A stretch of DNA of 64,000 bases from Phycisphaerales bacterium (lineage in GTDB: Bacteria > Planctomycetota > Phycisphaerae > Phycisphaerales > UBA5793): positions 186,001 through 250,000 of the forward strand of contig JADZAS010000013.1 of the NCBI GenBank assembly GCA_020852515.1, read 5' to 3'. Shown here piece by piece: positions 15,101 through 60,550 of the stretch (position 1 is the stretch's first letter; each line of letters opens with the position of its first letter). A program made the translations under genes and the position numbers. Under the pieces are notes generated by a model that saw only the letters and a program-made list of their open reading frames with translations, did not search any database and was not told where the DNA came from.

Positions 15101-15165
15101 CGACTCAGCCTCCTGCTGTCAAGCGGCCATCCTGGCCGGTGTCGAAGTACGGATTGCTCAGAGCT

Positions 15166-43129: not shown

Positions 43130-44593
43130 CTACTTTCCATCCGCGGCCGGCGCGGCCTGGCCGGCATTGCCTTCGCCGGGCCAGACGGCCGGCCTTTCGA
43201 CCGGTTCGTATTCAACGGGATGATCACGGTTGTATTCGTACGGCACGTGGCATCCCGGCGCACACCTGCCGCCCGCGTTGAGCTTCTCGAAGTTGATCGG
43301 CAGCATCCAGCCTCCGGTGCCAAACGGCACGGAGTCGCGGATGTGATTTTCCTTGTTGCTCGCGTGCGTCTCGTGGCAGGCGCGGCAGGTGCGGCCCTTC
43401 GTGTCCTTGTTCACGTGCAGGTAGTGCAGGTTCAGATCGCCGTTGCGGAAATTGGTCAGCGCCGTCGTCCGCTCGTCGTGCACGAGATCCTTGTCGTGGC
43501 ACGAGAAGCACAATGCGTAACTCTCCTCGCGGAACGGAGCGTAGAACTGCGGCGGATACTCCTTGATGAGCAGGCGGAAGTTGCCCCCGCCGTGAATCTC
43601 GTGGCAGGCGGCGCAGTTGCCCTGCGCCACTGGCCCGTGCAGGCTCTTACCCGTGGCGAAGACCGCCTTCATGTTCGTCAGGTCGCGGCCGTCGGGCATC
43701 TTGATCGTGCGGTCGTGGCACTTGAGGCACAGATCCACCATGTCTGTTTTGAGGATCGTCGCGTGATCAGACGCGTGCGGCTCGTGGCAGTTCAGGCACT
43801 CCTGGTCCGTGGTCACGGCCGCGTGCTGCGTCGTCGCCGTGTCCACGATGTGCTTGATCGACTCGTGGCACGAGAGACAGAGTTCCTTCTTGTCGGCGAG
43901 CAGCATCATCGGGTGATCCGACGCGTGCGGGTCGTGGCAGGCGGTGCAGTCGGTGTTCACCGGGCCGTGCACGTAGCGCATCCGCTCGACCTGCTCCTTG
44001 GTTGACGTGTGGCACTGCAGGCACAGGTCCCGCCCCTGCGTGAGCAGGAGGTGGTCGTACTGCGAAGCGTGAGGCGAGTGACACGCCGCGCACGCGCCGG
44101 CGGCCACGGGGCCGTGCACCGTTGATTTGCCGGCAAAGACGTTGTCGTGGCACTGCTTGCACAGCGCCGCCGAACTGTCGGCCTTGAGGATCAGCCGGCT
44201 CGTTCCGCCGTGCGGGTCGTGGCAGGCAAGGCAGTCGCCCGTCTTGAGCGGCTCGTGAACCGTCGTAGCGCCCTGCACGTTCATCTCGTGGCAGAAGAGG
44301 CACAGGTCCTTGGCTTCGCGCACGAGCGAGAAGGTGTGCAGCTGCGTATCCAACGGCGCGTGGCATGCATCGCAGGCGCCCACTGCGGCGGGGCCGTGCA
44401 TGACTTCATGCGCCTTCACGTCGGCGTGGCAGCCCGAAGCCAGGCATGAGCCTGGCGCAATCTCGCCGGATGGCCGTTCGATGGGCGGTTGATTCAGCGC
44501 GGCACCGGCATCTGAAGAACGCTGCATTCCCATCAGCAACGATGCGGCGCCGATCGCTGCTGCAGTGGCGAAGATGGTCCAAGCCGATTTCAT
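43130..44593 (-). CDS. 15-haem c-type cytochrome (doubled-CXXCH family)
   Basis: A 487-residue exported protein (signal peptide MKSAWTIFATAAAIGAASLLMG). I count 13 CXXCH motifs plus an N-terminal CX4CH (CLASGCH, about residue 50) and a C-terminal CX3CH (CAPGCH), giving 15 haem sites. Most motifs sit in the doubled-CXXCH repeat (CLACHDPHG, CAACHSPHAS, CLNCHEPHAS) spaced ~25-45 residues apart. It probably conducts or stores electrons in the periplasm. Its start overlaps the stop of the lipoprotein cytochrome by 4 bp, so they are translationally coupled. Confidence 0.92.
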   Translation of the reverse strand: MKSAWTIFATAAAIGAASLLMGMQRSSDAGAALNQPPIERPSGEIAPGSCLASGCHADVKAHEVMHGPAAVGACDACHAPLDTQLHTFSLVREAKDLCLFCHEMNVQGATTVHEPLKTGDCLACHDPHGGTSRLILKADSSAALCKQCHDNVFAGKSTVHGPVAAGACAACHSPHASQYDHLLLTQGRDLCLQCHTSTKEQVERMRYVHGPVNTDCTACHDPHASDHPMMLLADKKELCLSCHESIKHIVDTATTQHAAVTTDQECLNCHEPHASDHATILKTDMVDLCLKCHDRTIKMPDGRDLTNMKAVFATGKSLHGPVAQGNCAACHEIHGGGNFRLLIKEYPPQFYAPFREESYALCFSCHDKDLVHDERTTALTNFRNGDLNLHYLHVNKDTKGRTCRACHETHASNKENHIRDSVPFGTGGWMLPINFEKLNAGGRCAPGCHVPYEYNRDHPVEYEPVERPAVWPGEGNAGQAAPAADGK

Positions 44594-46149
44594 GGCTGAC
44601 CTCCAGATTCCTTTTCCGGACCGGCGGGAGTGGCACTCTCGCCTGTTGTGGCATCCTCACCCGGCGTGCGGTGATAGGTCATGGCGACATGGCAGCCCGG
44701 GGCGCACTTGCCGCCATCCTCCGTGCGCTCGAATCCGAGGGGCATCATCCAGTTCGAACTCTCAAAGGGCACTTCCGTCGCCAGGTGCTGCTCGAGATCC
44801 GAGCCGTGGATCGCGTGGCAGGTCTTGCAGGAGCGTCCCTTTTCATCCCGATTCACATGGAGGTAGTGCAGGTTGCGATCGCCATCGCGGAAGTCGGTCA
44901 GAGCCGTCGTCTTCTCCGCGAGGACGAGATCTTTCGAGTGGCAACTGAAGCACAGCGCGTAGTTCTGCAGGTCGAAACTCGAGTAAAAGCCCGAGGGGAA
45001 CTCCTGCTTGAGCAGCCGGGTGTGCGTCGAGCCGTGCACGTTGTGGCAGGCAGCGCAGTCGCCCGACTCGACCGGCCCGTGCAGGAAGCGCCGGCCGGTC
45101 ACGCTGGCCGTCATGTTTGGAATGGTGCGCCCGTCCTCCGCCTTGACCGGCCGGTCGTGGCACGCCAGACACAGCGTCGTCTGCCGGTCGCGCAGCAGTT
45201 TGGGCCGGCCCGCGGCGTGCGGATCGTGGCAGTTGGCGCACGAATCCGCCGTGAACACGGCGGCATGCGGCGTGGTGGCGCCGGCGATCGCCTCTTCCAG
45301 GCCAGAGTGGCAGTCGAGGCAGAGCTTCTCGGTCGGCTGCTTGAGGTGGAAATCGAAATCCGACGTGTGCGCCGCGTGGCACGTCGTGCACTCCTGCCGC
45401 GCCGGCTCGTGCACGTAAGGCGCGTTGGAGATCACGTATTTCGTATCGGCGTGGCACGCGAAGCAGTGCTCGGATCCGCTGCCGCCCCGCAGCAGGTGCG
45501 CGTTGTTCGATTCATGCGGCTGGTGACAGGCCGAGCACTCCCCGGCCGCGAATGGCCCATGCGCGTGCTTGCCCTCTTCGAGGACATGGCAGGTCGAGCA
45601 GACCTGATCGATCGTCTCGCGAACGAGCAGAAACTTGCGGCCGGCATGCGGATCGTGACAGCCGGTGCAGCCGGGCGAATCGAGCGCTTCATGCTTGTGC
45701 AACTGCGTGTTGCCGGTCTGGTGGCAGAAGTTGCACGTGTCGTTTCCTGCGCGGACAAGCGGATAGACATGTCCGCCCGTATCCGCGGCGTGGCACGAGA
45801 AGCAGTCGCCGGCGGCGAGCGGACCGTGCAGGCGATCGGCCGCGCCGAAGACGGCGTGGCATTCGGGGGTGATGCAGGTCGCGCCTTCAGGCAGCGCCTC
45901 CGTCGGCCGCGGCGCGGGATGATCGGCTGCAATGAAGTGCGGCGTCGGCGGCGCGGGCTCGGACGGTGCCATGTAGCGCATGGCCGTGTCCGCCGTGCGT
46001 CGCGCCTCGACTGGAGGCTGCTCGCTTTCCTTCTCTTTCTTGCAGCCGCCGACGAGCGCCATCATCGCCGCCAGTGAAATGGCGATCACCCGCGCGCCGA
46101 GAGCCGGCCGCGGCCTGGATCGCATCGCACTGGTGGGCGGCCCTTTCAT
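44590..46149 (-). CDS. 15-haem c-type cytochrome, predicted lipoprotein
   Basis: A 519-residue protein. The N-terminus ends in a lipobox-like ALVGGC at about residue 36, so it is probably lipid-anchored. It has 13 CXXCH motifs, an initial CX4CH (CITPECH) and a final CX3CH (CAPGCH), the same order as its neighbour at 43130 and the first gene at 53800. Shared C-terminal blocks (NYALCFSCHSKD, FRDGDRNLHYLHVN, GRSCKTCHAIHG, VPFESSNWM) mark the three as paralogues. The start overlaps the upstream stop by one base (TAATG). Confidence 0.92.
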   Translation of the reverse strand: MKGPPTSAMRSRPRPALGARVIAISLAAMMALVGGCKKEKESEQPPVEARRTADTAMRYMAPSEPAPPTPHFIAADHPAPRPTEALPEGATCITPECHAVFGAADRLHGPLAAGDCFSCHAADTGGHVYPLVRAGNDTCNFCHQTGNTQLHKHEALDSPGCTGCHDPHAGRKFLLVRETIDQVCSTCHVLEEGKHAHGPFAAGECSACHQPHESNNAHLLRGGSGSEHCFACHADTKYVISNAPYVHEPARQECTTCHAAHTSDFDFHLKQPTEKLCLDCHSGLEEAIAGATTPHAAVFTADSCANCHDPHAAGRPKLLRDRQTTLCLACHDRPVKAEDGRTIPNMTASVTGRRFLHGPVESGDCAACHNVHGSTHTRLLKQEFPSGFYSSFDLQNYALCFSCHSKDLVLAEKTTALTDFRDGDRNLHYLHVNRDEKGRSCKTCHAIHGSDLEQHLATEVPFESSNWMMPLGFERTEDGGKCAPGCHVAMTYHRTPGEDATTGESATPAGPEKESGGQP

Positions 46150-47684
46150 TACGGCTCGTTTTCTGCGGGGCTGGCGCCGAGTCGGCTGCCGATCTCATTG
46201 CAGTTGTCGATCGAGAGATTGAGCAGCGCCGTGGCATAGGTGATGTTGTGCACGCCGTGCGCGGTCCGGACGAACTCCACGTTCTGGCTGGCGTCGTTGA
46301 AGAGCCGCTGCAGCGCCAGCCGCTCGGCGTCGTCGGTGATGCTCGCGCCGTCGAGTGCGACGCGGGCCTCTTCCACCGCCGCCTGCGCCTGGCTGAGCAG
46401 CAGATCGACGGAGTTCTTCCATACGTCCAGCACGCCCGTGTAGCGCGTCCCGTGGCAGGTGTCGCATGCCTTCTGGGCGGCGAGGTAGGTGTAGCCTGAC
46501 ACGCCGTGCGAAGCGCCGCTGGTCTCTTCGAGGTGACAGGCGATGCAGTCCACCTGCGAGGTGAACATGGGGCTGGGCATGTTGGGTACGCCGAAGCCGC
46601 CGACGCCGCTGTACATCTTCGCCGGGCCCGAGTGCGTCGCCGAGTGGCACTGCGCGCAGCCTTCGGAGGACTCGCCGGTCTCGTGAATCATGCCGGCCAG
46701 CGAGAGCGCCCGGTTCGGATTTGCCGTGAGATGATGCTCGATCTGCACGTGGCAGTTTGAGCATTCGAGTTTGTGTTCGCTGACGTGGGCCCGGTGCATG
46801 AGTTGCGTTTCGCCGTACTTGGCCAGTTGCTGGGGCTGATTGTGGCAGGTCCAGCACAACTGGCGCGGCACCTCGCCGTCGCCCTTGATCGCCTCGGAGT
46901 GGCAGTTCTCGCAGGCCACCTTGCGGTCGAGATACTCCTGGTGGTTGAAGAGGCCCGTGGCGAGTCGGATGTCACCCTTGGGTGCACCGTGGCACGAGCC
47001 GCAGCCGCCGAGCACTTCTTCATCGCGCCCGTGCTTGACGCCCTTGAAGTGGCAGGTGAAGCACGTGTCGAGCGTCACCACCAGGTGCTGGCCCTGCACG
47101 ATCTGCGAGTGACATGAGGAGCAGCGCAGTTCCTTGCCGCGGCGCAATTCGCCCAGGTGCGGCGCGTGATTGAAATGGATCTTGATCTTGTCGCCGCGCT
47201 GCGTGGGCACTTCCCACTCCACCAGCCCTTCGAGGAGGCGCTGGTCATGGCAACCCTCGCGCAGGCACGACTCGTCGCGGATCTCCGCGTGCGGCTTGGA
47301 TCCGTAGGTCCGGGTGACGTACTTGGCGACCTGGCTGCTCGCCTGCCACTTGCCCTTGAGCGTGTTCTTGATACCTGGTTCCATGTGACAATCGACGCAC
47401 GGCACGTCCTTGTGCGTCGATTCGTGCCAGGCCTGGTAGTACGGCTCCATGAGATGGCAATTACGGCAGAAGTCCGGCTCCATCGAGTACTCCGCAAACG
47501 CCAGGCTCCCTCCCACCACGATGAGCACCGCGTAACCCATCTTGGCCCACAGCGTCAGGCCGAAGGGGACATAGCGGCGTTTCACCCGCTTGACGCCCAG
47601 GATTCTCCACAAAGTGGGAATCGGCCGACCTGAATCCGGGGCCGTTTTCTCAGTTTCGACAGTGCCAGACATGTCAGACTCCAT
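46149..47684 (-). CDS. NapC-like membrane-anchored 12-haem cytochrome
   Basis: About 511 residues from the ATG at 47684, with GGAAGG 8 nt upstream. An ATG at 47672 is an alternative. After a cytoplasmic N-tail comes one helix (MGYAVLIVVGGSLAFAEYSM) and a NapC/NirT-like start (FCRNCHLMEPYYQAWHEST, then CVDCHMEPG). In total there are 11 CXXCH and one CX4CH (CLREGCH). The C-terminal ~100 residues have no haem motif and are helical. NapC-type heads accept electrons from quinol and pass them to periplasmic partners. A sigma54-type element at 47720-47735 sits just upstream. Confidence 0.9.
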   Translation of the reverse strand: MESDMSGTVETEKTAPDSGRPIPTLWRILGVKRVKRRYVPFGLTLWAKMGYAVLIVVGGSLAFAEYSMEPDFCRNCHLMEPYYQAWHESTHKDVPCVDCHMEPGIKNTLKGKWQASSQVAKYVTRTYGSKPHAEIRDESCLREGCHDQRLLEGLVEWEVPTQRGDKIKIHFNHAPHLGELRRGKELRCSSCHSQIVQGQHLVVTLDTCFTCHFKGVKHGRDEEVLGGCGSCHGAPKGDIRLATGLFNHQEYLDRKVACENCHSEAIKGDGEVPRQLCWTCHNQPQQLAKYGETQLMHRAHVSEHKLECSNCHVQIEHHLTANPNRALSLAGMIHETGESSEGCAQCHSATHSGPAKMYSGVGGFGVPNMPSPMFTSQVDCIACHLEETSGASHGVSGYTYLAAQKACDTCHGTRYTGVLDVWKNSVDLLLSQAQAAVEEARVALDGASITDDAERLALQRLFNDASQNVEFVRTAHGVHNITYATALLNLSIDNCNEIGSRLGASPAENEP

Positions 47685-47719
47685 TCCCGAGACCTTCCGC
47701 AGGACCCCATTGCAACAGT

Positions 47720-47735
47720 TGCAACCCGCATGCCC
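47720..47735 (-). promoter_or_regulatory. Sigma54-type promoter inside the haem operon
   Basis: The minus strand reads GGGCATGCGGGTTGCA, matching the sigma54 consensus TGGCACG-N4-TTGCA at 10 of 12 defined positions, with exact GG-N10-GC spacing and a perfect TTGCA. Predicted start of transcription is about 47709, giving a 25-nt leader to the NapC-like ATG at 47684. It occupies the longest gap between genes of the operon. Confidence 0.6.
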
Positions 47736-47743
47736 CGGAGGCG

Positions 47744-49999
47744 TCACAGGGCCTGAAGTCCTCCCAGAATGATGAGCACCACCATGCCCGTTCCGATGAG
47801 CATCGCCACCACGCCGACCACGATCGCGGTGATCCGCTGCCAGCGGGGCGCGGGGCCGGTGCGGAACTTGTCAAGCCGCTGCCGCTCCACGAGGTGCGCG
47901 TATTCCGCGGCCCGCTCGTGTTTCATTTCCTCTTCCGGAACGCGGCCGGTGAAGATGACGTCATCCACGGGGAATTTCTCGAGTCGCAGGTGCGCGTTGA
48001 AGAAGTGGATGGTGAAGATGAACCCGACGGCCAGCAGCGCCTCGTAGCCGTGCACGACCATCGCGATGTTGAACGCCCAGCCGGGCAGCACGTGCGCTGC
48101 AGTCTCGGGGAACCACAGGAGCAGACCCGAGCCGCCGATGATGAACGTGCCGACGATCTCAGCCCAGTAGTCGAACTTTTCCCAGTACGTCCAGCGGCCG
48201 AAGGCGGGCTTGCCGCGCCCGGTGATGAACCAGCGGAACATGCCCACGCAGTCCTTCACGTCTTTCCAGCGCGGGAACAGCGAGTGCGGGCCGAACAGCC
48301 AGCCGAACACCGTGCGGGTCGGGCCAAGCGGGGTGGATCGCGCTTGCTGAGCCACCTCGCGGCCGGCCCTGAGGACGCCGATCACATGCAGGACGAAGTT
48401 GAACATCAGCATGATGGCGAAGAAGCGGTGCCACGTTCCTGCGGCATCGACCCCGCCAAACACGCTCGCCAGGGCGCCGGCCCAGGGCCGGTCGGAGAAG
48501 AACAGCGGGATGCCGGTGAACGTCAGGCCGAAGAAACTCGTGATCACCAGCACGTGATTGACGCGGTTGATGCGCGTGAAGCGGCGAATGGCCACACCCT
48601 TGCGCAGATCCGGCCGCGGGCCATTGCGCCGCCGCTCGATGACCATGCGGATGAACCACAGCAGCGAGTGCAGGCCAAAGAAGCCAAACGCGGAGCTGAT
48701 GACGATCAGGAAGTACAGCCACACGCCGTGCAGCAGCGGATAGCGGTCGCTGTCGCGGTAGTCCGCGTGCGGGTCGAACATCGCGAAACTGGGCGTGGCG
48801 CCTTCGTGACACTTGGCGCACACCTGGACCCGGTGGTCGCCATGCAGAGCCGAATTGGGATCGCTGATGGGCAGGATGTCGTGGGCGCCGTGGCAGTCGC
48901 TGCAGCGCGCCGGCCGCGTCGAGCCCAGTTGCGTCACCTGGCCGTGGTAACTGTCGCGGTAGGTTTCGTAGAACGTGGCGCGGCGGGAGCCGGACATCGC
49001 CGGGTCGTTGTGGCAGTCGCCGCACTCGTTGACGATGTCAAGCATGAACGAAGACACGTTCGTGCGGGTGATGCTGTGCGCGGTATGGCAGTCGGTGCAC
49101 ACCGGCGCCTTCTGGCCGTTCTCTTCCCCGTTGACGCGCACCTTTGCGTGCACGCTCGTGGCGAAGGTTTCGCTGATGCCCACGTGGCAGCGGCCGCAGG
49201 TCGCGGGCACCTGGTCGCGGTGGACCGGCGAGCGTTCATCGGTCGCCGGATGCACTTCGTGGAAGCCGTGGCAGTCAGCGCACGTCGCGGCGACGACGAG
49301 ACCGCCCTGCGTGATCGCCTTGCCGTGCACGCTCTCCAGATATGCGCTCACCAGCGCCTCGCCGCCCTGCTCGACGGAAGAATTGGTCGCGTGCTGGCTG
49401 TGGCAGCCGGCGCACGTGGCGACAATGTTCATCGGGTACGTCTTGGAGTTGCGGTCGCGCGGCGGGAGAATGTCGTGCCCGCCGTGGCACGTCGAACACG
49501 TTGGGGTCTGGCCGTTGCCCGGCTGGGGGCTTTCAGCGTGCACGCCGCGCGTGAACGCCGCCGCCTCGGACGTGTGGCAGGAAGACGTCGTGCACGACGC
49601 CGGCCGCAGCGTCTGAGCATGCGGCAGGGCCGCGGCGTCGGCGTGGCAGTCGATGCACGAGAGCATCGAGTGCTGCGGGAAGGGAATCTGGTCGGCTGAG
49701 ATGTACAGCGCCGGCCGGGTCGCCGGCTCTTCCTCGCCCGGCACGGTCTGCCGGTCCGTCTGGCCGATCATCGATCGCCGCTCGAATGGATCCAGCGTGG
49801 CGATGTGCGCCTGGCCGTGACAGTTGAGGCAGCGGCGATTGTCGGTAGGCGAGGGGGCATCCTGTTGCGCCGGCGCCGCAGCGGCGACCGCGAACAGGAT
49901 GCACACAACCATGAAAGCCTCCCGGCACCGGGAATGCGATTGAGGCTTGGACCGCTCAGCGGCGAAGCGCTTTCCAGACTGTCTGCTCAGAGGAATCAC
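47744..49999 (-). CDS. 11-haem cytochrome c fused to membrane cytochrome b
   Basis: A 751-residue protein from the GTG at 49999, 12 bp after the upstream stop. An ATG at 49912 with a strong GGGAGG is an alternative but gives a signal peptide lacking basic residues. Exported N-terminal ~420 residues carry ten CXXCH and one CX4CH (CTTSSCH). The C-terminal ~320 residues have about five helices resembling formate-dehydrogenase-gamma/cytochrome b561 (FTRINRVNHVLVITSFFGLTFTG, WHRFFAIMLMFNFVLHVIG, AMVVHGYEALLAVGFIFTIHF) with paired histidines for b-haems. It is probably a quinol-linked entry or exit point coupled directly to c-haems. Confidence 0.9.
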   Translation of the reverse strand: MIPLSRQSGKRFAAERSKPQSHSRCREAFMVVCILFAVAAAAPAQQDAPSPTDNRRCLNCHGQAHIATLDPFERRSMIGQTDRQTVPGEEEPATRPALYISADQIPFPQHSMLSCIDCHADAAALPHAQTLRPASCTTSSCHTSEAAAFTRGVHAESPQPGNGQTPTCSTCHGGHDILPPRDRNSKTYPMNIVATCAGCHSQHATNSSVEQGGEALVSAYLESVHGKAITQGGLVVAATCADCHGFHEVHPATDERSPVHRDQVPATCGRCHVGISETFATSVHAKVRVNGEENGQKAPVCTDCHTAHSITRTNVSSFMLDIVNECGDCHNDPAMSGSRRATFYETYRDSYHGQVTQLGSTRPARCSDCHGAHDILPISDPNSALHGDHRVQVCAKCHEGATPSFAMFDPHADYRDSDRYPLLHGVWLYFLIVISSAFGFFGLHSLLWFIRMVIERRRNGPRPDLRKGVAIRRFTRINRVNHVLVITSFFGLTFTGIPLFFSDRPWAGALASVFGGVDAAGTWHRFFAIMLMFNFVLHVIGVLRAGREVAQQARSTPLGPTRTVFGWLFGPHSLFPRWKDVKDCVGMFRWFITGRGKPAFGRWTYWEKFDYWAEIVGTFIIGGSGLLLWFPETAAHVLPGWAFNIAMVVHGYEALLAVGFIFTIHFFNAHLRLEKFPVDDVIFTGRVPEEEMKHERAAEYAHLVERQRLDKFRTGPAPRWQRITAIVVGVVAMLIGTGMVVLIILGGLQAL

Positions 50000-50011
50000 G
50001 ATCCACCCGCT

Positions 50012-51631
50012 TCACGCAGTGTGCTCCCGGTCGAGGAAGGATGACTTGTAGTACACGAGCAGGCCGGAGAACGCCAACAGCAGCACCACCGCGGCAGAAC
50101 CGACCTTGGTCTGCTGGCGCTGCTGCTCACGCAGCCGCTCGATGAGTTCATGCGTTGCCTGAATCCGATCAACCCCGTCGCCGATTTCCGCGGCGAAGTT
50201 GTTGATGTCGCGCATGTTGAAACTGTGAAACACCTGCCGCAACCGCGAATTCACTTCCGCGGCGTTCTGTTGCGCCTGCTCGAGCGAGAGGTTGCGATAG
50301 CCCCACGTGGTAAGATCGCCGCTGAGATCGGTCGATTTCGCAACCTGCGCTTCCGTCTCGATCAGAATCTCCTTGATTCGCTTGACGGACTCCATCGTCG
50401 CCGCCCGATGGCACGGCGAGCAGCGGCCGCCCTCGGCTCGCGAGCGCGTGTCGATGATCTCGGGCGAAGGCTGGGTGATCTTGTGGCTGCCCTGGCCGTG
50501 ACAGTAGAGACACGTCGGGTCGCCGAAGTCGCCGTGCGGGCTGCCGAGGTGCTTTTCCTTGATGTCGGCGTGGCACTTGCCGCAGAAGTACGACACGGCC
50601 CGGCCGCGCGTCTGGCTCACGAATTCGCTCTCGTTGAGGTAGGTGACGAGGAAGTCCGCCTGCCGCTCGAGGTGCGCCGCCCGCTTGAACGCATCATCCG
50701 ACTCGAACTGATCGCGCCGCAGCGCCGCGTTGCCGCCGTGGCATCCGTCGCAGCCCACGTTGGCCGCGTAGTGCACGCTGTGCTTCCATTCCAGTTCGAC
50801 GATCTCGCTCGACCGGCCCGGCAGGTTCATGTGGCACTGCACGCAGTTGCTCTGTGCGTAGGGATCAGCCGCATGCTGCTCAGCGGGTGGAGGCGACGCT
50901 TCAGGTGGCGATGCGGCCTGGGCGCGCGAGGCGTGCAGCGCGATCGCGCCCAGCCCCGCCATCAACAGCAGGCCGTGGTGTTTAAGACCGGCGAACGGCG
51001 GCTCCGTCTCCGGCTGGCCCTCGCGGTAAAGCACGCGCCGGATCGCCCGCCGCTCGTGCGCCACCAGCGCGTAGAACACAATGATGGCGATGGCCGTGAA
51101 GATGAAGAACAGGGGACGGTGTCCGAAGTACTCGGAGAGCGGCGCCAGTTGCTCGCCCTCCGCAGTCATCCTTTCGGGCCAGCCGCCCCAGAACGTGAAG
51201 ATGATCGCCAGCGCCGCCACAGTCGTCACCGCGATGCGGTAGAACCACTTCGGCCGCGTGCGCGCCCGTTGGCCGCGATACCAGAACGGCAGCAGCACGA
51301 TAACGAGTATGACCGGCCCCTGGCTCAGAACGCCCCAGGTCTTGCCGCTCAGCCCCAGAAGCGTTGTCGGCCAGACGCGCAGGTACTGATACACCGCCAG
51401 GAAGTACCACTCGGGCTTGATGCCCACGGGCGTCGAGCCGCGCGGGTTGGCGGGCTGCTCCTCGTGAACCATCCCGTGCACGCCGAGCATGTCCAGCAGC
51501 ACGGGCAGCGTGACCAGAAACATGATGATCGCCAGGCACACCAGCACGGAAACCGTCATCTTGATGATCTCGTTGGGCCAAAAGGGCTCCAACTGATCGG
51601 GTTCGTATTGCTCGCGGTAGTCAACGCCCAT
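50012..51631 (-). CDS. Cytochrome b C-terminal (subunit IV-like) domain fused to pentahaem cytochrome c
   Basis: A 539-residue protein. Residues 1-200 are subunit-IV-like with the quinol-site PEWY (73-76, in KPEWYFLAVYQYLR) and about four helices. A further hydrophobic segment (~218-240) leads into a periplasmic domain with five CXXCH motifs (first Cys at about 263: CVQCH, CDGCH, CGKCH, CLYCH, CSPCH). A helical region and a C-terminal membrane helix (AAVVLLLAFSGLLVYY) close the protein. It replaces both subunit IV and the usual cytochrome f or c1 with one chain. It follows the cytochrome b gene by 22 bp. Confidence 0.92.
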   Translation of the reverse strand: MGVDYREQYEPDQLEPFWPNEIIKMTVSVLVCLAIIMFLVTLPVLLDMLGVHGMVHEEQPANPRGSTPVGIKPEWYFLAVYQYLRVWPTTLLGLSGKTWGVLSQGPVILVIVLLPFWYRGQRARTRPKWFYRIAVTTVAALAIIFTFWGGWPERMTAEGEQLAPLSEYFGHRPLFFIFTAIAIIVFYALVAHERRAIRRVLYREGQPETEPPFAGLKHHGLLLMAGLGAIALHASRAQAASPPEASPPPAEQHAADPYAQSNCVQCHMNLPGRSSEIVELEWKHSVHYAANVGCDGCHGGNAALRRDQFESDDAFKRAAHLERQADFLVTYLNESEFVSQTRGRAVSYFCGKCHADIKEKHLGSPHGDFGDPTCLYCHGQGSHKITQPSPEIIDTRSRAEGGRCSPCHRAATMESVKRIKEILIETEAQVAKSTDLSGDLTTWGYRNLSLEQAQQNAAEVNSRLRQVFHSFNMRDINNFAAEIGDGVDRIQATHELIERLREQQRQQTKVGSAAVVLLLAFSGLLVYYKSSFLDREHTA

Positions 51632-51653
51632 GGGCGTGTCCTTCCTGGTTCGC

Positions 51654-52313
51654 TCAAAGCGGCTTGGAAATCCCCGTCCGGCGGATCATGACAAAGTGCA
51701 TCCCCATGAACGCGCTCATGATCGCCGGCAGAATCCAGATGTGCAACGAGAAGAAGAACCCCAAAGTCTCCCCCGTGATCGCCTTGCCTCGGCGGACCCA
51801 CTCCACGATGCCCGCGCCGAGAAAGGGGACGGCGCTGGGAATCTCCGTACCCACCTTGGCGCCCCAGTAGCTCAGCTGCGTCCACGGCAGCAGGTAGCCC
51901 GTAAATGCCATCATCGTCGTGAGCAGCAGCAGCAGCACGCCGCTGACCCAGTGCAACTCGCGCGGCGCCCGGTAGATCTTGTAGTAGGCGATGCGAGCCA
52001 TGTGCATGAGCACGAGCGCGATCATCAGGTTCGCCGCCACCGCGTGAATGCGCTGCACCAGCCAGCCCATGGTCACGTTTGACTTGATGAACGTCACGCT
52101 GTCCCAGGCGCTTTCCGGGTGCGGCTTGTAGTACATGAGCAGCAGCATTCCGGTAAACACCTGCACGAGGAACGTGAAGAACGCCAGCCCGCCGAAGCAG
52201 CCCGCCCACGAAAGCGTGCGCGGCACCCACTTCTTCGTGACGTTTTTTTCCAGTTCGGGCGTCACGTCGAAGCGGTTGTCAATCCAGCCGTAGATGCGTC
52301 GAATCACACTCAT
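51654..52313 (-). CDS. petB: Cytochrome b6-type subunit (N-terminal cytochrome b)
   Basis: A 220-residue, four-helix protein. Haem b ligands are H90 and H104 on helix B and H191 and H206 on helix D. The H191-x14-H206 spacing is the b6 rather than the bc1 type. Cys39 (SWAGCFGG, followed by FLVQVFTG) aligns with the b6 Cys that covalently holds the extra haem ci/cn. It forms the quinol-oxidising core with the Rieske protein and the subunit-IV fusion on either side. The gap to the Rieske stop is 9 bp. Confidence 0.94.
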   Translation of the reverse strand: MSVIRRIYGWIDNRFDVTPELEKNVTKKWVPRTLSWAGCFGGLAFFTFLVQVFTGMLLLMYYKPHPESAWDSVTFIKSNVTMGWLVQRIHAVAANLMIALVLMHMARIAYYKIYRAPRELHWVSGVLLLLLTTMMAFTGYLLPWTQLSYWGAKVGTEIPSAVPFLGAGIVEWVRRGKAITGETLGFFFSLHIWILPAIMSAFMGMHFVMIRRTGISKPL

Positions 52314-52322
52314 GTCAGTCTC

Positions 52323-52781
52323 TCAGGAGATGATGAGATTGCCTTCCTTGACTTCGAACGGAATTTCAACAAGCGGAGCGCTCACGGGGCCGCTGACGAC
52401 CTGGCCCTCGCCGCTGAACACGGCGCCGTGGCAGGGGCAGTGGAAGTTGCCGTGGGCCGTGTCCCAGACCACGTTGCATCCCAGGTGCGTGCACGACGCG
52501 TTGAAGACACGCGGCCCGGCTTCGCTCATCACGACCACGACCTGCTGGCCGTGGAAGTCGGCGTAGTACGCCTGCCCCGGCGTCAGCCGATCAAGCGGAA
52601 TCTGCACCGGCTTGGATTCACCCAGCCGCACGGGCAGTTTGAGGAACGCGACGATCGGGTAGACCACGGTTCCGACGGTGATCGCCGCAGCGCCGCCGAT
52701 GCAGGCCTGACAGAAGCGCCTTCTGCCGCCGTCATGCGGTTCGCGTGGCCCATCATGGACGTGATCGCTGGCCATGGTCAT
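52323..52781 (-). CDS. petC: Rieske [2Fe-2S] protein of the bc complex
   Basis: A 152-residue protein. The N-terminus has a twin-Arg-like RRRFCQACIGG followed by a hydrophobic anchor (~27-47). The cluster motifs are CTHLGC (97-102) and CPCHG (115-119): ligands C97, H99, C115, H118 and a C102-C117 disulfide. It moves electrons from quinol at the PEWY site to the c-haems. The ATG overlaps the preceding stop (ATGA). Two extra Cys in the signal region (FCQAC) are unusual. Confidence 0.95.
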   Translation of the reverse strand: MTMASDHVHDGPREPHDGGRRRFCQACIGGAAAITVGTVVYPIVAFLKLPVRLGESKPVQIPLDRLTPGQAYYADFHGQQVVVVMSEAGPRVFNASCTHLGCNVVWDTAHGNFHCPCHGAVFSGEGQVVSGPVSAPLVEIPFEVKEGNLIIS

Positions 52782-53803
52782 TGCTCCGCTCCCTGCCGCT
52801 CGAGCAGCAGTTCAGCCGCCCGCTTGTAACTGGCGGCGGCCTCGGGCATCTTGTTGCGCTGTTCGAGGATCATGCCCATGAGGTAGTGCGCGCGGGGCTG
52901 GGTCGGATCGCGGTCGAGCACTTCGCGCACGAGCGTCTCGGCCTGGTCCAGTTCGTTGGCGCCGCGCACCGCCTGCACGTACGCCACGCCGAGCGTCGCT
53001 TCGACGAGATCGGGATTCTCCGCCAGCACGGCACGAAACTGCGCTTCGGCTTCGGCGATGCGATGGCGCTTCAGGTTCAGCCGCCCGAGGCCGAGCCGCG
53101 CTTCGACGCTCTGGGGCCACAGCGCGATGGCCTCGCGGTACTTCTCGTCGGCCATCTCGTCGAGGCCGCGCCGCGCCAGTTGCCGCGCCAGCAGCGTTAC
53201 ACGACCGGCGCGAATCTCCACCTCGCTCAGTTCGCTTGCTGCATCCGGGTGAAGCGCCGCTTCAAATCGCTCCACGCTCAGGCGCCCGAGTCCGACGAGC
53301 AGCGCGTCCGTCACGATGTCGCCCATGCGCGGCGTGACGCCTGCCAGGCTGTAAATCACCCGGCCGTCGCCGCCGACCACCACGACCGTGGGCATCACGC
53401 TCACGCGGTAGGCTTCGTACGCCCGCCGGTTCGGATCGTGCAGCACGACGCCGGCAAAGTCCAGCGCTTCAGCTTGCGTCTTCAGATCGAGGCGCGATGC
53501 GTTTTGGGCGATGACCAGCACGGGCGCGATGCGGTCGCCCGCCAGCCGGGGATCATCGAGCACGCGCTCGATCACCGCGCATCCTTCGCGCGTCGGCTGG
53601 TGGTAGAGTTCGCCGAAGATCAGAACATACGGCCGGCCCTGCACGCTCTGGGCGTCGAAGACGTTGCCGTCGAGGTCCGCGAGCACCAGCGGCGGCGCCT
53701 CCGAGCCGCGCGGCGGCATGGCGGCGCTTCCCGCCGCAATACACGCTGCCGCAGTCAGCACAGCGCCCCATCGCACGGCGGACGCAAGAAGATCGAGTCT
53801 CAT
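52778..53803 (-). CDS. Exported thioredoxin-fold/TPR protein (first copy of operon)
   Basis: A 341-residue protein with a signal peptide (MRLDLLASAVRWGAVLTAAACIAAGSAA). The thioredoxin-like domain (APPLVLADLDGNVFD, RPYVLIFGELYHQPTREGC, VSVMPTVVVVGGDGRVIY) has only one Cys where CXXC is expected. About four TPR units follow (EKYREAIALWPQSVEARLGLGR, AEAQFRAVLAENPDLVEATLG). It has the same architecture as the protein at 42091-43092. It overlaps its neighbours by 4 bp at both ends, placing it firmly in the operon. It probably has an assembly or docking role. Confidence 0.87.
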   Translation of the reverse strand: MRLDLLASAVRWGAVLTAAACIAAGSAAMPPRGSEAPPLVLADLDGNVFDAQSVQGRPYVLIFGELYHQPTREGCAVIERVLDDPRLAGDRIAPVLVIAQNASRLDLKTQAEALDFAGVVLHDPNRRAYEAYRVSVMPTVVVVGGDGRVIYSLAGVTPRMGDIVTDALLVGLGRLSVERFEAALHPDAASELSEVEIRAGRVTLLARQLARRGLDEMADEKYREAIALWPQSVEARLGLGRLNLKRHRIAEAEAQFRAVLAENPDLVEATLGVAYVQAVRGANELDQAETLVREVLDRDPTQPRAHYLMGMILEQRNKMPEAAASYKRAAELLLERQGAEQ

Positions 53804-55212
53804 TGGCGGCCTCCCTCGGGCACACTGGCGGGCTCGGCCTGCGACAGATCACCCCGGGCGTAACTCTGTTCTTCATGGCAGCCCGGCGAGCAGCGCCCGC
53901 CATCATCCATCGCTTCAAAGTTGATCTCGAGCATCCAGCCGCTCGAACCGAACGGCACCGCCTCGCGGATGTGGAACGGCCGCTTGGAAGCGTGCACCTC
54001 GTGGCAGGCCCGGCAGGTCCGCCCCTTTTCCTGATTCACATGCAGGTAGTGCAGATTCTGATCGCCCTCGCGGAATCGCGTTACACCAATGCCCGATCTG
54101 GCCGTCACCATCTCCGGCAAGTGGCACGTGAAGCACAGCGCGTAGCGATCAAGATCGAACGCCGCGTAGAACTCGGGCGGATACGTCTTCACGAGCAGGT
54201 TCGCGTTCTCAGCCGCGTGCGGCTGATGGCACGACGAGCACGAGCCGGCGCGAATCGGGCCGTGATGGTCCGGCGAGTCGTGCAGCAGCAGCGCCATGTT
54301 CGTCAGCGTTCGGCCGTTCCCCGTTACAAGTGGCTGGCTGTGACAGGTGAGGCAGGTGTCCGGCTCGGGCCGTTTCTGGAGACTGGGCAACGTCGAAGAG
54401 TGCGGCGAGTGGCAGCCGGTGCAGCCGTTGGCCTGGTGGACCGCGCCGTGCACCACCGGCGCGGCATCGATCTTCTCCATCATTTCGCCGTGGCACGTGG
54501 CGCATAGCTCATCAGTCGCCGCGCGCAGCATGAACGGGTTGGGCGAGGCGTGCGGGTTGTGGCAACTCGTGCAGCCCTGCTCCATCGCTTCGTGCACGTG
54601 CAGCCCGGCGCCGCTCTGCGCCACCTCGGTGTGGCAGTCGGCGCAGAGTTCGTTCGTGTCCTTGACGAGCAGGTTCGCCTTCCAGGAAGAATGCGGCTCG
54701 TGGCAGAGAATGCACGCGCCGGCCGCGACCGGGCCGTGCACGTGCACCAGCGGGTCTTCTTCGTGCACGTGGCAACTCACGCACAATCCGCGCGTCGGGT
54801 CGGCGATGAGCATCATCCGGTGTTCCGAGCCGTGCGGATCGTGACAGCCGGTGCACTGTCCGTTGGCCACCGGCCCGTGCACGACGGTCCGATGCTCCAT
54901 GAGGTGGCAGTTGGAGCACAGCGTGTCCTGGTTGATGGTTTTGAAGGTGTGCTCTCGCGGCTCGTCGTACTGGTGGCAGGCGTCGCACTTGCGCTGCGCC
55001 GCCGGGCCGTGGACGAACTTGTGATCCAGCGTGGAGGCGTGGCAGCCTGCCTGGGCGCAGGATTCGACGGCCGTAGTGGGTCGTGGAGGTGCGTCTTCGG
55101 CAATGACAACGCCGTGTGACAGCAGCCCCGCCGCGGTTGCCGCCAGCCAAGCCGGTGACAAGCGGCTCCTCCATAACGTGATTTCGGGGTATTTCGACAA
55201 TGCAGCCTCCAT
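53800..55212 (-). CDS. 15-haem c-type cytochrome, first gene of the operon
   Basis: About 470 residues from the ATG at 55212. A longer frame to 55920 is antisense shadow. The predicted sigma54 start (about 55219) leaves only 7 nt before this ATG. An in-frame TTG at 55161 has GGAGGA 5 nt upstream and is a serious alternative start. It has the same pattern as the two other 15-haem proteins: CX4CH first (CAQAGCH), 13 CXXCH, and CX3CH last (CSPGCH, after GSSGWMLEINFE). Conserved HGP and DPH/SPH segments flank the motifs. The product is periplasmic. Confidence 0.9.
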   Translation of the reverse strand: MEAALSKYPEITLWRSRLSPAWLAATAAGLLSHGVVIAEDAPPRPTTAVESCAQAGCHASTLDHKFVHGPAAQRKCDACHQYDEPREHTFKTINQDTLCSNCHLMEHRTVVHGPVANGQCTGCHDPHGSEHRMMLIADPTRGLCVSCHVHEEDPLVHVHGPVAAGACILCHEPHSSWKANLLVKDTNELCADCHTEVAQSGAGLHVHEAMEQGCTSCHNPHASPNPFMLRAATDELCATCHGEMMEKIDAAPVVHGAVHQANGCTGCHSPHSSTLPSLQKRPEPDTCLTCHSQPLVTGNGRTLTNMALLLHDSPDHHGPIRAGSCSSCHQPHAAENANLLVKTYPPEFYAAFDLDRYALCFTCHLPEMVTARSGIGVTRFREGDQNLHYLHVNQEKGRTCRACHEVHASKRPFHIREAVPFGSSGWMLEINFEAMDDGGRCSPGCHEEQSYARGDLSQAEPASVPEGGRQ

Positions 55213-55229
55213 CGCGCCGGCTGGACGCT

Positions 55230-55245
55230 TGCACGTTCCGTGCCG
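55230..55245 (-). promoter_or_regulatory. Sigma54-type promoter of the haem operon
   Basis: The minus strand reads CGGCACGGAACGTGCA, matching TGGCACG-N4-TTGCA at 10 of 12 defined positions, with perfect GGCACG and exact GG-N10-GC spacing. The predicted start of transcription is near 55219. It faces the first cytochrome gene and lies about 1 kb from a gene for a sigma54-dependent response regulator. Confidence 0.65.
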
Positions 55246-55435
55246 CGCCGACCAAGCACTGCACCCCGGTTTCCGGACTCGATCGCTCGATTTCGAGGGC
55301 GCGGGCACGGAAGGAGGCCCCGCGCCCGGGGCGACTTTCCTGTTTGTGAGAATGCGCGGCGCCCAGGCTTCCCAAATGCGGAATGACAGAACCGGAAATC
55401 CGCACTCAGCCGCACCGCCGAGGGCCTCGCGCTCG

Positions 55436-55451
55436 TGGTATGGGACTTGCG
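55436..55451 (+). promoter_or_regulatory. Sigma54-type promoter of the NTF2-like gene
   Basis: TGGTATGGGACTTGCG keeps the invariant TGG and TTGC with exact GG-N10-GC spacing; three other consensus positions differ. The predicted start near 55462 is 19 nt before the ATG at 55481, and a GGAG site lies between. It diverges from the haem-operon promoter, 190 bp away. Confidence 0.5.
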
Positions 55452-55480
55452 ACGACACTCCATCAACGAATGGAGCCCTC

Positions 55481-56095
55481 ATGAAACATCCGCTGACTGT
55501 TCTCACTGTCGCCCTGCTCATCACCGCGCCCAATTTCGGCGCTGCCCGACCCTGGCAGACGCCGCCGGGGCACCCGGACGTCACCCCGCAGGGCCACCCG
55601 GCCGTGACCGACGCGCCTAAGCCGCCGCCCACGGACCATCCGCCGATTCCGGCCCCGCCGTACGCGACATCCGTCGAAGTCCTCGTCAACACCGCGTTCG
55701 AAACGATCTCGGGGGGGCGGGGCGAAGCGCGCGACTGGGACAAGTACCGCGATCTCTTCTTCCCCGATGCGCGTCTGTACAGTGCGCAGGTGATGGGCGA
55801 CACCGCCGTCGTGGGCGGCATGACCGTCGATGAATTCATCGCCCGCGAGCAGAAGTACCTCGAAGGCTCGGGGTACTTTGAGAAGCCCATCAGTCTGAAA
55901 ATCGAAGAATTCGGCCACATCGCGCAGGTGCGCAGCGTCTATGAATCGCGCCGCCGCGCCGAAGACGAAGCGCCCTACACACGGGGCGTCTACAGCATTC
56001 AGCTCGTCGAGTCGGGCGGCAGGTGGTGGATCCTCAACATGCTCTGGCAGCGCGAAGACCCGCAGAATCCGATCCCGGACGAGTATCTGCAGTAG
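55481..56095 (+). CDS. Exported NTF2-like (SnoaL-type) protein
   Basis: A 204-residue protein. The ATG at 55481 has GGAG 5 nt upstream and opens a signal peptide (MKHPLTVLTVALLITAPNFGAA). A Pro/His-rich linker (~25-60) precedes an NTF2-like alpha+beta domain (LVNTAFETISGGRGEARDWDK, LFFPDARLY, DEFIAREQKYLEGSGYFEK, GRWWILNMLWQRE). Such domains bind small ligands or act as non-catalytic partners. The function is unknown. Its divergence from the haem operon and its own sigma54-like element suggest membership of the same regulon. Confidence 0.8.
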   Translation: MKHPLTVLTVALLITAPNFGAARPWQTPPGHPDVTPQGHPAVTDAPKPPPTDHPPIPAPPYATSVEVLVNTAFETISGGRGEARDWDKYRDLFFPDARLYSAQVMGDTAVVGGMTVDEFIAREQKYLEGSGYFEKPISLKIEEFGHIAQVRSVYESRRRAEDEAPYTRGVYSIQLVESGGRWWILNMLWQREDPQNPIPDEYLQ

Positions 56096-56198: not shown

Positions 56199-57546
<1,348 letters not shown>

Positions 57547-57548
<2 letters not shown>

Positions 57549-57594: not shown

Positions 57595-58005
57595 TCAAAA
57601 GAGCAGCTTGAGCAGGTAGTCCAGCCGGCCGCGCAGGACGATCCGCTTGCCCGACTCGCGCATCACCTCGCGGATCTGCTGCCGGTAGGTCGGGTGATAG
57701 CAGTGGCTCGGGCAGTGCTTGCACGCCGGCTTGGGGTCAAACGGACACGTCGCCCGTTTCACCCAGGCGTGCTGCAGCAGACGGGCGCACTGCGGGCAGA
57801 GCACCGGCGGCCGGCGCATCACGTCCTCCCACCCCGCCGCCGTGATCGGCGCTTTCTCACTTTCTCGATTCTGGTGATTCGCGCTGCAGTACATCTCAAT
57901 AAAGAGACCCAGCAGCCTCAGGTCTTTGCGGAGTTTCCGGTCCTCCGAAGCGTCTGATCGGAGCACCGGCAGGCGAAAAGTGCGATTGGCGGTTGAAAGG
58001 CTCAT
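57595..58005 (-). CDS. YgbA-family (NO-associated) cysteine-rich protein
   Basis: About 136 residues from the ATG at 58005 (MSLSTANRTFRL). The frame is open to 58029, but that codon lies upstream of the predicted transcription start. It matches the YgbA 'nitrous-oxide-stimulated promoter' family: DLRLLGLFIEMYCSANHQ, LCPQCARLLQHAWVKRATCPF, KPACKHCPSHCYHP, IREVMRESGKRIVLRGR. The Cys pattern (CPQC, C, CKHC, C) suggests a metal or Fe-S site. In enterobacteria ygbA is induced by NO through NsrR. Here a sigma54-type promoter precedes it and the neighbours are a two-component system. Confidence 0.87.
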   Translation of the reverse strand: MSLSTANRTFRLPVLRSDASEDRKLRKDLRLLGLFIEMYCSANHQNRESEKAPITAAGWEDVMRRPPVLCPQCARLLQHAWVKRATCPFDPKPACKHCPSHCYHPTYRQQIREVMRESGKRIVLRGRLDYLLKLLF

Positions 58006-58024: not shown

Positions 58025-58040
58025 TGCAAATGCCGTGCCC
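58025..58040 (-). promoter_or_regulatory. Sigma54-type promoter of the YgbA-like gene
   Basis: The minus strand reads GGGCACGGCATTTGCA, differing from TGGCACG-N4-TTGCA only at the first base, with exact GG-N10-GC spacing. The predicted start near 58014 leaves a short 9-nt leader before the ATG at 58005. It is the closest consensus match of the four elements in the window. Confidence 0.65.
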
Positions 58041-58076
58041 GGCCGGCCTGGCGCGCCGTTTGTAGATCAAGGCTCG

Positions 58077-59192
58077 ATGCTCCGACGTCGCCTGCTACTG
58101 GGACTTGGCTCCATGATCGTCCTGTTCGCCGTACTGGCGATCGGGTCGGTCCTGCTGCTCAACCGCCTCGTCGGCGAGATCGACGACATCAAGGCCACCA
58201 GCACCACCTACATCTCGCAGTTGCACGATCTCGGCGGGCACGTCACCGGCGTCGAGTCGGCGCTCTACGCAGCCGGGCCCCAGGCGGTGCCCGCGGCGGC
58301 ACTTTCGCAGACCGCGGCCGACATGCGCCAGGCGATCGACCGGCTCGGCGCCGCCTCGCTCAACTGGCCCGAGCAGTCCCCGGCGCCCGGCCTCGCCGGC
58401 CGGCTGGTCGAAACCGTGCCGGCTTTTGCCGACCGCCTCGACGCGCTGGCGCGGCTCTCGGATGCCGCGGACATCGGCGAAGCGCGCGACCAGGTCCTGC
58501 GCAGCCACGTCGGCGTTCAGACCGACATTCTCGAACTCACCCGACTGGCCCGGGCCTTCGCCGCCGACAGCCAGACCGCGATCACCAACCGCTTCCGCTG
58601 GATTGTGCTCGGCGTGGCGGTGGCGTCGATTCTCGTCGTCAACGTCTCGATCCTCGTCGGGCTGCGGACGGTTGGCCTCGTGCTGCAGCCGATGGAGCAG
58701 ATCATCGCCGCCACGAGCATCTGGGCCCGCGAACGCTTCGACCACCGCATCGCACTCGACCAGCCCGATGAGTTCGGCCAACTGGCGCGTGCGCTCAACC
58801 AGATGGCCGATCGCCTCGAGGTCAGCGAACTGCGCAAGATCGAGACGCTGCAGCAGACGGCGCGCATGCTCAATCACGAGTTGAACAACGCCCTGGCGAT
58901 CATCAGCCTGCAGGTGCAACTGCTCGACCGCAGCCGCAACGCCTCGCCTGAACTCAAAGACCGGCTGGATCGAATCCGCGCCTGCCTGGCGCGCATGACC
59001 AACACGGTGGACCTGCTCAAGCAGGTTCGGCGCATTGTGCTTACCGACTATGTGCCGGGCGAGAAGATGCTCGACCTGCCGCGATCGATCAGCGAGGGCG
59101 GCAGCGCCGAGGACGAGCCGCCGCCGGCCGAAGTCGCCGTGGTTCCCGCCTCGACCTCCACTCCCGCTGCCCAAGGCCCGCAACTCACGTGA
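58077..59192 (+). CDS. HAMP sensor with histidine-box but no ATPase domain
   Basis: About 371 residues from the ATG at 58077 (MLRRRLLLGLGS). It has two membrane helices (~8-28 and ~180-202) flanking a ~150-residue periplasmic helical sensor. A HAMP domain follows (IAATSIWARERFDHRIALDQPDEFGQLARALNQMADRL), then a dimerisation/phosphoacceptor-like helix with NHELNNALAIISLQ. The protein then ends in a Pro/Ser/Ala tail: no N, G1 or G2 box. It overlaps the complete kinase by 4 bp (GTGA), so the two probably work as a pair, with the partner kinase acting on its His. Confidence 0.85.
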   Translation: MLRRRLLLGLGSMIVLFAVLAIGSVLLLNRLVGEIDDIKATSTTYISQLHDLGGHVTGVESALYAAGPQAVPAAALSQTAADMRQAIDRLGAASLNWPEQSPAPGLAGRLVETVPAFADRLDALARLSDAADIGEARDQVLRSHVGVQTDILELTRLARAFAADSQTAITNRFRWIVLGVAVASILVVNVSILVGLRTVGLVLQPMEQIIAATSIWARERFDHRIALDQPDEFGQLARALNQMADRLEVSELRKIETLQQTARMLNHELNNALAIISLQVQLLDRSRNASPELKDRLDRIRACLARMTNTVDLLKQVRRIVLTDYVPGEKMLDLPRSISEGGSAEDEPPPAEVAVVPASTSTPAAQGPQLT

Positions 59193-60550
59193 CGCACGCA
59201 TTCTCCCCCGCCAACAACCGCCTGCTGCTCAGCCAGGTACGCTGGCTGGTGTCGCTGCGATGGGGCGCGGGCGCCGCCGTCGCGATCGCCGCGCTCATCG
59301 ATCGCGTATGGCTTCAGTGGTTCCCAAACGCCACGGCCGCGCTCATGCTGGGCATAACGATTCTCGGCTTCAACGCCATGGTGGCCGCCTGGACGCGCCG
59401 CAGCATTCCGCTCATGCGCCACCCCCGCCGCCTGCTTCTGGCCGTCTGGCTGCAGATCGGCGTCGATCTCTCCCTTCTGGCGATCCTCACGGTGTGGACG
59501 GGCGGGCTGGGCAGCATCATCAGCGGCTTTTTCGTCTTTCATATGGTCTTCGCCAGCCTGCTGCTCGGCCAGGTGATGTCCTATCTCGCGGCGACATACG
59601 CCGTGTGCATTTTCTTTACGCTGCTGTGCACGCTTGGCCCTTCGCCGTCCAGCCGCGCCGACGCTCTGGCCGCAGTCGGCTTCATCCTGACGCTCTACCT
59701 CACGGTGTTCATCGCCAATCACCTCACGACCCGTCTGCGCCTCAACGAGCAGCGCCTTCACGAACACTCGCGCCGCCTCCTGGAGATGTCCCACCGCCTG
59801 CGCGATCAGCAGCAGGCGATGGTGCAGCACGAGAAGATGGTGGGTCTCGGGCAACTCGCCGCGGGCCTGGCGCACGAGATCGCCAACCCCCTAGCCTCGA
59901 TGGACAGCGTGCTGCAGCTGATGATTCGCAAGCCCGAGCGAGCCACCGAGTCCGCCATTCGCACCCTGCGCGAGCAGATCGACCGCATCAGCAACATCAT
60001 CCGTCAGATGACCGCGTTTGCGAGGCCCGACGATCCAACCGGCCCGCCGGTTCCGATCGGCCAACTCATCGAGCGCGTGAAGCGCATCATCCAACTCGAC
60101 CCTCGCGCGCGGCACGTGCAACTGATCGAAGATCTCGATCACCGTCTCGCGGCCCAGTGGCTGGTTCCCACCGCCCTTGAGCAGGTGCTCGTCAATCTCT
60201 CGCTCAATGCGCTGGATGCGATGGCGGGCGTCCCGGATCCGCGCCTGACCATCCGCCTCATCCACCGCGCTCATCACAACGTGATCGAGGTGCAGGACAA
60301 TGGCTCGGGCATCGCGCCCGAGGATCTGAACCGCATTTTCGAGCCCTTCTTCACCACCAAGCCGGTCGGAAAGGGCACGGGTCTGGGGCTGTCGATCTCG
60401 TATCGGCTCGTTGAGAAGCACGGCGGCACGCTGCGCGTGAACAGCACCGTCGGGCACGGAACGACGTTTAGTATGGTTTTTTCCAGCCCGCGAGCGGCGC
60501 TGCGAGCCTCGGAGCCGGCCGACCCGGAACCTGAGCCGGCCCGCGTTTGA
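59189..60550 (+). CDS. Membrane sensor histidine kinase
   Basis: A 453-residue protein. The GTG start overlaps the previous stop. About six membrane helices fill residues 14-178, followed by a coiled linker. The H-box is LAAGLAHEIANPL (H229), the N-box NLSLNALDAM, G1 DNGSGI, F-box FEPFFTTK, and G2 GKGTGLGLSI. The N-terminal RWLVSLRW and the six-helix layout resemble RegB/PrrB/ActS redox kinases; this is a loose likeness. The likely target is the NtrC-type regulator at 56199-57548. Confidence 0.94.
   Translation: MTHAFSPANNRLLLSQVRWLVSLRWGAGAAVAIAALIDRVWLQWFPNATAALMLGITILGFNAMVAAWTRRSIPLMRHPRRLLLAVWLQIGVDLSLLAILTVWTGGLGSIISGFFVFHMVFASLLLGQVMSYLAATYAVCIFFTLLCTLGPSPSSRADALAAVGFILTLYLTVFIANHLTTRLRLNEQRLHEHSRRLLEMSHRLRDQQQAMVQHEKMVGLGQLAAGLAHEIANPLASMDSVLQLMIRKPERATESAIRTLREQIDRISNIIRQMTAFARPDDPTGPPVPIGQLIERVKRIIQLDPRARHVQLIEDLDHRLAAQWLVPTALEQVLVNLSLNALDAMAGVPDPRLTIRLIHRAHHNVIEVQDNGSGIAPEDLNRIFEPFFTTKPVGKGTGLGLSISYRLVEKHGGTLRVNSTVGHGTTFSMVFSSPRAALRASEPADPEPEPARV

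Follow-up and report, generated by a model that had tools for sequence, protein, structure and literature searches.

Outward-facing sigma-54 promoters and tandem dyads suggest shared control of a multihaem cytochrome operon and an NtrC-type activator operon in a Phycisphaerales bacterium

How a planctomycete might govern the synthesis of a multihaem respiratory chain is the question raised by the interval 55201-55480 of the window, i.e. the whole stretch of 64,000 nucleotides analysed here, since this interval lies between a minus-strand cytochrome operon and plus-strand genes for an NTF2-like protein and an NtrC-type activator. An earlier note, made from the sequence of the stretch, had claimed two outward-facing -24/-12 elements with exact GG-N10-GC spacing in this region, and both are present: CGGCACGGAACGTGCA at 55230-55245 on the minus strand (predicted start 55219) as candidate promoter of the decahaem cytochrome operon, and TGGTATGGGACTTGCG at 55436-55451 on the plus strand (predicted start 55462) as that of the NTF2-like/activator operon. 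The two 16-mers stand back to back, contain the GG-N10-GC core and come close to YTGGCACG-N4-TTGCW, the minus element matching 10 of 12 positions of the sigma-54 consensus. The published form of the latter is mrNrYTGGCACG-N4-TTGCWNNw (quoted in PMC2725144), and ChIP-seq mapping in E. coli has revealed sites with the same variants as those seen here, namely A or G at -14 and G at -11 (PMC4591121). Because the sigma-54 weight matrix had been drawn up by hand from that consensus and gives approximate scores, plain consensus matches were counted in addition. Absence of rpoN, which the earlier note had named as a finding that would speak against the promoters, does not apply: the genome harbours one complete copy, and the encoded RpoN comprises the AID, CBD and DBD domains.

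Among 2000 dinucleotide shuffles of 55213-55480, a site as good as the minus element arose in 0.05% and one as good as the plus element in 1.15%, while the two together never appeared (0/2000). On a larger scale, the figures are compatible with chance matches in a GC-rich genome: sites scoring at least as high as the plus element are not in excess across the window (6 observed vs 7.6 in shuffles), and a genome-wide count of the strict pattern YGGCACGNNNNNTGCW yielded 24 matches vs 40 for the reversed control. Genome-wide counts were therefore dropped as evidence for promoters; in a GC-rich genome without an excess of matches a single match proves nothing, and conservation constitutes the evidence. 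The comparison with close relatives (Planctomycetota/Phycisphaerales metagenome assemblies) bore out the expected conservation, as position, direction and core of the elements are kept upstream of orthologous operons. Both elements are retained in 5/5 congeneric genomes and most of the spacer between them has changed; the plus element reads TGGTATGGGACTTGCA or CGGTACGCCRRTTGCA in all five, and the divergent sites in the loci L055 and L056 match as well. On the cytochrome side, nine loci beyond the five congeners carry the element at the head of the operon in the form TGGCAC-N6-(G/A)TGC, and across the class a sigma-54 element accompanies 14 of 15 operon heads, each with a background rate of 0.2-3%. 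In operons headed by a different cytochrome gene, the site stands before that gene instead. The sole exception among the 15 heads is the locus L036 of genome G051, where no sigma-54 site is found in the 400 nt upstream of the first-cytochrome orthologue; in this locus (contig C41), TGGCATGGCTTGTGTT occurs at -473 upstream of the cytochrome gene at 14350-15663. Given such conservation in place and direction, as well as the occurrence of paired dyads in genomes that had no part in defining them (see below), it is exceedingly improbable that the two elements are chance matches.

The minus element also contains the palindrome GCACG-N3-CGTGC, perfect in 5/5 congeners, and might hence be an operator for a repressor or some other factor instead of a promoter. 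In distant first-cytochrome orthologues, however, TGGCAC and TGC stay in register while the palindrome is gone; it is lost in G005, L055, L056 and L057 as well as in the differently headed operons, all of which preserve a -24/-12 pattern of unchanged direction. This retention of the -24/-12 pattern without the palindrome favours a promoter, to which the distance between element and start codon is also suited, so that an operator is very unlikely.

The first gene of the operon (53800-55200, minus) encodes a decahaem-type cytochrome c (Pfam Paired_CXXCH_1, 2.7e-61), the start of which was corrected to the TTG at 55200, with GGAGG five bases upstream and a leader of 19 nt. This codon is preferred over the rejected ATG at 55212 because the latter would leave a leader of only 7 nt devoid of a ribosome site, and because the congeners start with TTG or GTG behind leaders of 18-21 nt. 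The NTF2-like gene, starting with the ATG at 55481, likewise has a 19-nt leader. The remaining operon (43130-53803, minus) encodes a TlpA/TPR protein, a Rieske protein, a cytochrome b in an N part and a C part, together with haem c, a multihaem/b561 protein, a NapC-type protein, itself a multihaem protein, and two decahaem cytochromes. A likely internal sigma-54 promoter, GGGCATGCGGGTTGCA at 47720-47735 on the minus strand, precedes the NapC-type gene and is conserved in G004, G001 and G003. Rfam and tRNA scans of the window gave no matches.

As possible activator sites, the earlier note had pointed to an inverted pair, TTTCCGG at 55270-55276 and CCGGAAA at 55392-55398. Both words are present, but TTTCCGG is absent in G001 and both are absent in G002 and G003; since the pair is not conserved across congeners, it was rejected. 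The conserved blocks between the two promoters in congeners are two 18-bp dyads of the consensus WTTCYC-N6-GRGAAW, to which no strand is assigned: UAS 1, a likely activator site (TTTCCTGTTTGTGAGAAT, 55336-55353), is centred at -125.5 relative to the minus start and -117.5 relative to the plus start, and UAS 2, a likely second site (CTTCCCAAATGCGGAATG, 55368-55385), lies 32 bp away and is a weak match to the matrix. This matrix was built from four congeneric copies of UAS 1 and applied to nine held-out operon-head promoters, resulting in a Fisher p of 9e-11 vs windows of the same loci, although p-values of this kind overstate because related genomes are not independent. In the held-out loci, a dyad is centred at -70 to -220 for 18 of 44 sigma-54 sites, as opposed to 1.4 expected from rotated dyad positions (maximum 7 in 1000 rotations). 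Ten fresh genomes of the class, retrieved only after the motif had been settled, showed such a dyad at 9 of 21 sites vs 0.42 expected (maximum 5 in 2000); no dyad/promoter pair was found in five of the ten, for which short contigs are partly responsible. Moreover, when 104 offsets were tried, 18 of 23 cases had their best second dyad at a distance of 32 or 33 bp, and the same spacing applies to every pair of the fresh set, some second copies being low-scoring. Placed 70-220 bp upstream, in tandem and in helical phase, the dyads exhibit the layout of NtrC-type enhancers. Sites three helical turns apart are a known arrangement, as exemplified by NtrC at glnAp2, where tandem sites 32 bp (three turns) apart lie about 100-140 bp upstream, although the dyad sequence differs and the target is nitrogen metabolism. 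In the bacterium's own genome, the strict word TTCYC-N6-GRGAA is found at nine sites, equal to the control, one of which is the predicted ccmE/tetrahaem enhancer described below.

With respect to the plus-side neighbours, the earlier note was right about the sigma-54 activator, while its NTF2-like assignment stands only weakly: the small secreted protein encoded at 55481-56095 (plus) reaches 20.4 bits for DUF4440, below the cut-off of 25.2, and its gene is kept in 7 of 61 relatives. The next gene (56199-57548, plus) encodes an NtrC/ZraR-type enhancer-binding protein composed of a receiver, a sigma-54 AAA+ domain (PF00158, 1.7e-67) with the GSFTGA loop visible in the alignment, and a Fis-type HTH (PF02954, 1.4e-10), which identifies it as NtrC-type. 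Two kinase genes follow on the plus strand. HK1 (58077-59192) is, by domain search, a membrane sensor with HAMP and HisKA, and HK2 (59189-60550) is a PilS-like membrane histidine kinase which, owing to its HisKA and HATPase_c domains, provides the nearby kinase of a two-component system. HAMP, usually along with HisKA, was found in HK1 of the window and of three relatives (L126:6810-7832, L131:6920-7966, L044:16787-17860), and an ATPase domain was detected in none of these four; HK1 and HK2 possibly form a split or trans-acting kinase pair.

Between activator and kinases, the minus strand carries a gene for a YgbA_NO family protein (57595-58005; PF11756, 1.2e-17; start codon uncertain). Its sigma-54 promoter, GGGCACGGCATTTGCA at 58025-58040 (minus), attains the top score of the window and is conserved in 5/5 congeners. 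A sigma-54-like element before HK1, TGGCGCGCCGTTTGTA at 58049-58064 (plus), features GT at -12 and reads TTGCA there in G002 and G003. The gene order NTF2-like, activator, ygbA-like, HK1, HK2 is kept in the genus, in other orders the activator still accompanies HK1 and HK2, and the ygbA-like gene adjoins kinase genes in relatives. Directly before HK1, other genera encode a PhnD-like periplasmic binding protein (L126:5664-6677; PF12974, 1.1e-48), and ORFs similar to the L126 protein occur in L039, L044, L123, L129 and L131; no such gene precedes HK1 in the window's genus. In those other genera, the PhnD-like protein may serve as signal input.

Sigma-54 activators are numerous in this genome, with 52 first-look candidates, and it is conceivable that the promoters are sigma-54 dependent but that a different regulator binds the dyads, the adjacent activator controlling something else. 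Such an arrangement is unlikely in light of several observations that tie the activator to the operon: its orthologue is present in 10 of 61 relatives, all of them belonging to the 12 that possess the cytochrome family; the genes are adjacent in several families and orders; the recognition-helix segment GIG[LV]SSLYRK is invariant across 12 orthologues; and the layout of the dyads is typical of NtrC-type activators. Co-occurrence and helix conservation suggest that the adjacent activator itself binds the dyads.

Taken together, 55201-55480 is in all likelihood a shared sigma-54 control region, at whose tandem dyads the neighbouring activator switches on both divergent units. The proposal of the earlier note that the NtrC-type system controls the cytochrome operon thereby gains support from the conserved promoters and neighbours, the presence of rpoN, the co-occurrence of activator and cytochrome genes, and the dyads at enhancer distance. 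In the proposed mechanism, sigma-54 RNA polymerase would wait at both -24/-12 elements until the activator, phosphorylated by the adjacent HK1/HK2 pair, binds the dyads at 55336-55353 and 55368-55385 and assembles into a ring, which would then loop to the polymerase at either promoter. The decahaem/Rieske/cytochrome-b/multihaem operon and the activator's own operon would consequently be raised together. The sequence is hence best read as a putative two-component sigma-54 regulon of the NtrC/ZraR type that serves multihaem respiration and whose activator operon is autoregulated, with binding of the dyads, looping, autoregulation and phosphorylation by HK1/HK2 as predicted steps.

Further probable targets of this system are the ygbA-like gene and, outside the window, ccmE together with a tetrahaem cytochrome gene. 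In relatives, pairs of dyad and promoter precede ccmE and a radical-SAM gene as well as genes encoding small tetrahaem cytochromes and a multihaem lipoprotein. On the strength of these relatives, the own genome was predicted to carry such a pair at its tetrahaem gene, and the pair was subsequently found: roughly 84 kb outside the window, the predicted enhancer occupies the gap between the tetrahaem gene and ccmE, and 5/5 congeners have the dyad centred at -167.5 to -169.5. The radical-SAM target of G025 was set aside, as a close homologue is absent from the own genome. Near the NapC and ygbA-like promoters, no dyads were found in this genus; in L126, the NapC promoter carries its own dyad.

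The ccmE/tetrahaem promoter of the own genome features GT at -12. The same replacement of GC occurs in the tetrahaem promoters of the five congeners (L105:6278-6293, L106-L109) and of G016, in ccmE promoters and in the HK1 element at 58049-58064, and L042:18628 is listed among the sites with a conserved GT; GC is present in the orthologous tetrahaem promoters of L044 and L055. The idea of a new promoter class was abandoned, given that GT at -12 is already seen in the sigma-54 sites of E. coli pspA, pspG and ygeW (PMC4591121). Two further sets of sites came to light in the course of the comparison. A cluster of small multihaem cytochrome genes (L103; G051:C69:10000-29900) combines several strong dyads with sigma-54 sites, the distance being constant at -138.5 to -140.5, and also has dyads at 10393/10426 and 15234, for which a sigma-54 partner was not found. 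Three dispersed, similar stretches of ~60 bp (L058, L079 and L080, at G000:C3:83124, C35:87946 and C36:15136) have at their end a near-perfect sigma-54 promoter, TGGCACGCCATTTGCT, behind which come GGGAAGTACCTA and then differing sequence without a clear gene.

As to the inducing signal, an electron-acceptor, redox or NO-related cue is a guess. YgbA_NO proteins are members of nitrosative-stress regulons in proteobacteria, so that an NO-related cue for the activator is faintly possible by analogy; ygbA is mentioned in PMC1274295. A more far-reaching and rather doubtful extension holds that one two-component sigma-54 switch governs the whole Phycisphaerales-type multihaem module, consisting of the electron-transport operon, the activator operon and cytochrome maturation, to which some genomes add the radical-SAM gene, which may serve haem synthesis. 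A nitrogen-oxide or redox signal would enter via the unusual split HK1/HK2 sensor, with HK2 perhaps supplying the ATPase domain that HK1 is without.

The arrangement is known in kind, while the dyad motif and the target set are newly defined. ZraSR of E. coli is likewise a two-component system, whose NtrC-family activator contains receiver, AAA+ and Fis-type HTH domains and is autoregulated; unlike the window's system, it responds to zinc and envelope stress, targets a periplasmic protein instead of a respiratory chain and uses other binding sites. The ZraSR/zraP locus also features divergent sigma-54 promoters flanking one intergenic region (PMC4591121). In Desulfovibrio, the sigma-54 activator gene DVU3142 is divergent from the multihaem cytochrome operon ohc, an octahaem operon, with sigma-54 promoter and activator sites that were inferred by comparative genomics; DVU3142 is, however, treated among one-component activators, and cytochromes, binding sites and phylum differ (PMC4641369). 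The RpoN regulon of Geobacter sulfurreducens connects sigma-54 to extracellular-respiration cytochromes and has a very similar promoter consensus, while phylum, operons and activators differ (PMC2725144). In the literature searched, no paper on the planctomycete system was found, and the word cytochrome is absent from the main text of a 2025 survey of sigma-54 regulons (PMC12316311).

The analysis thus links a multihaem respiratory chain of planctomycetes that are known mostly from metagenomes to a candidate activator, a dyad motif and a list of targets. In such genomes, the dyad motif can locate further members of the chain and hint at the electron acceptor. For sigma-54 control of respiration, the locus adds a clear case from a lineage other than the proteobacteria and the Desulfovibrio/Geobacter groups.
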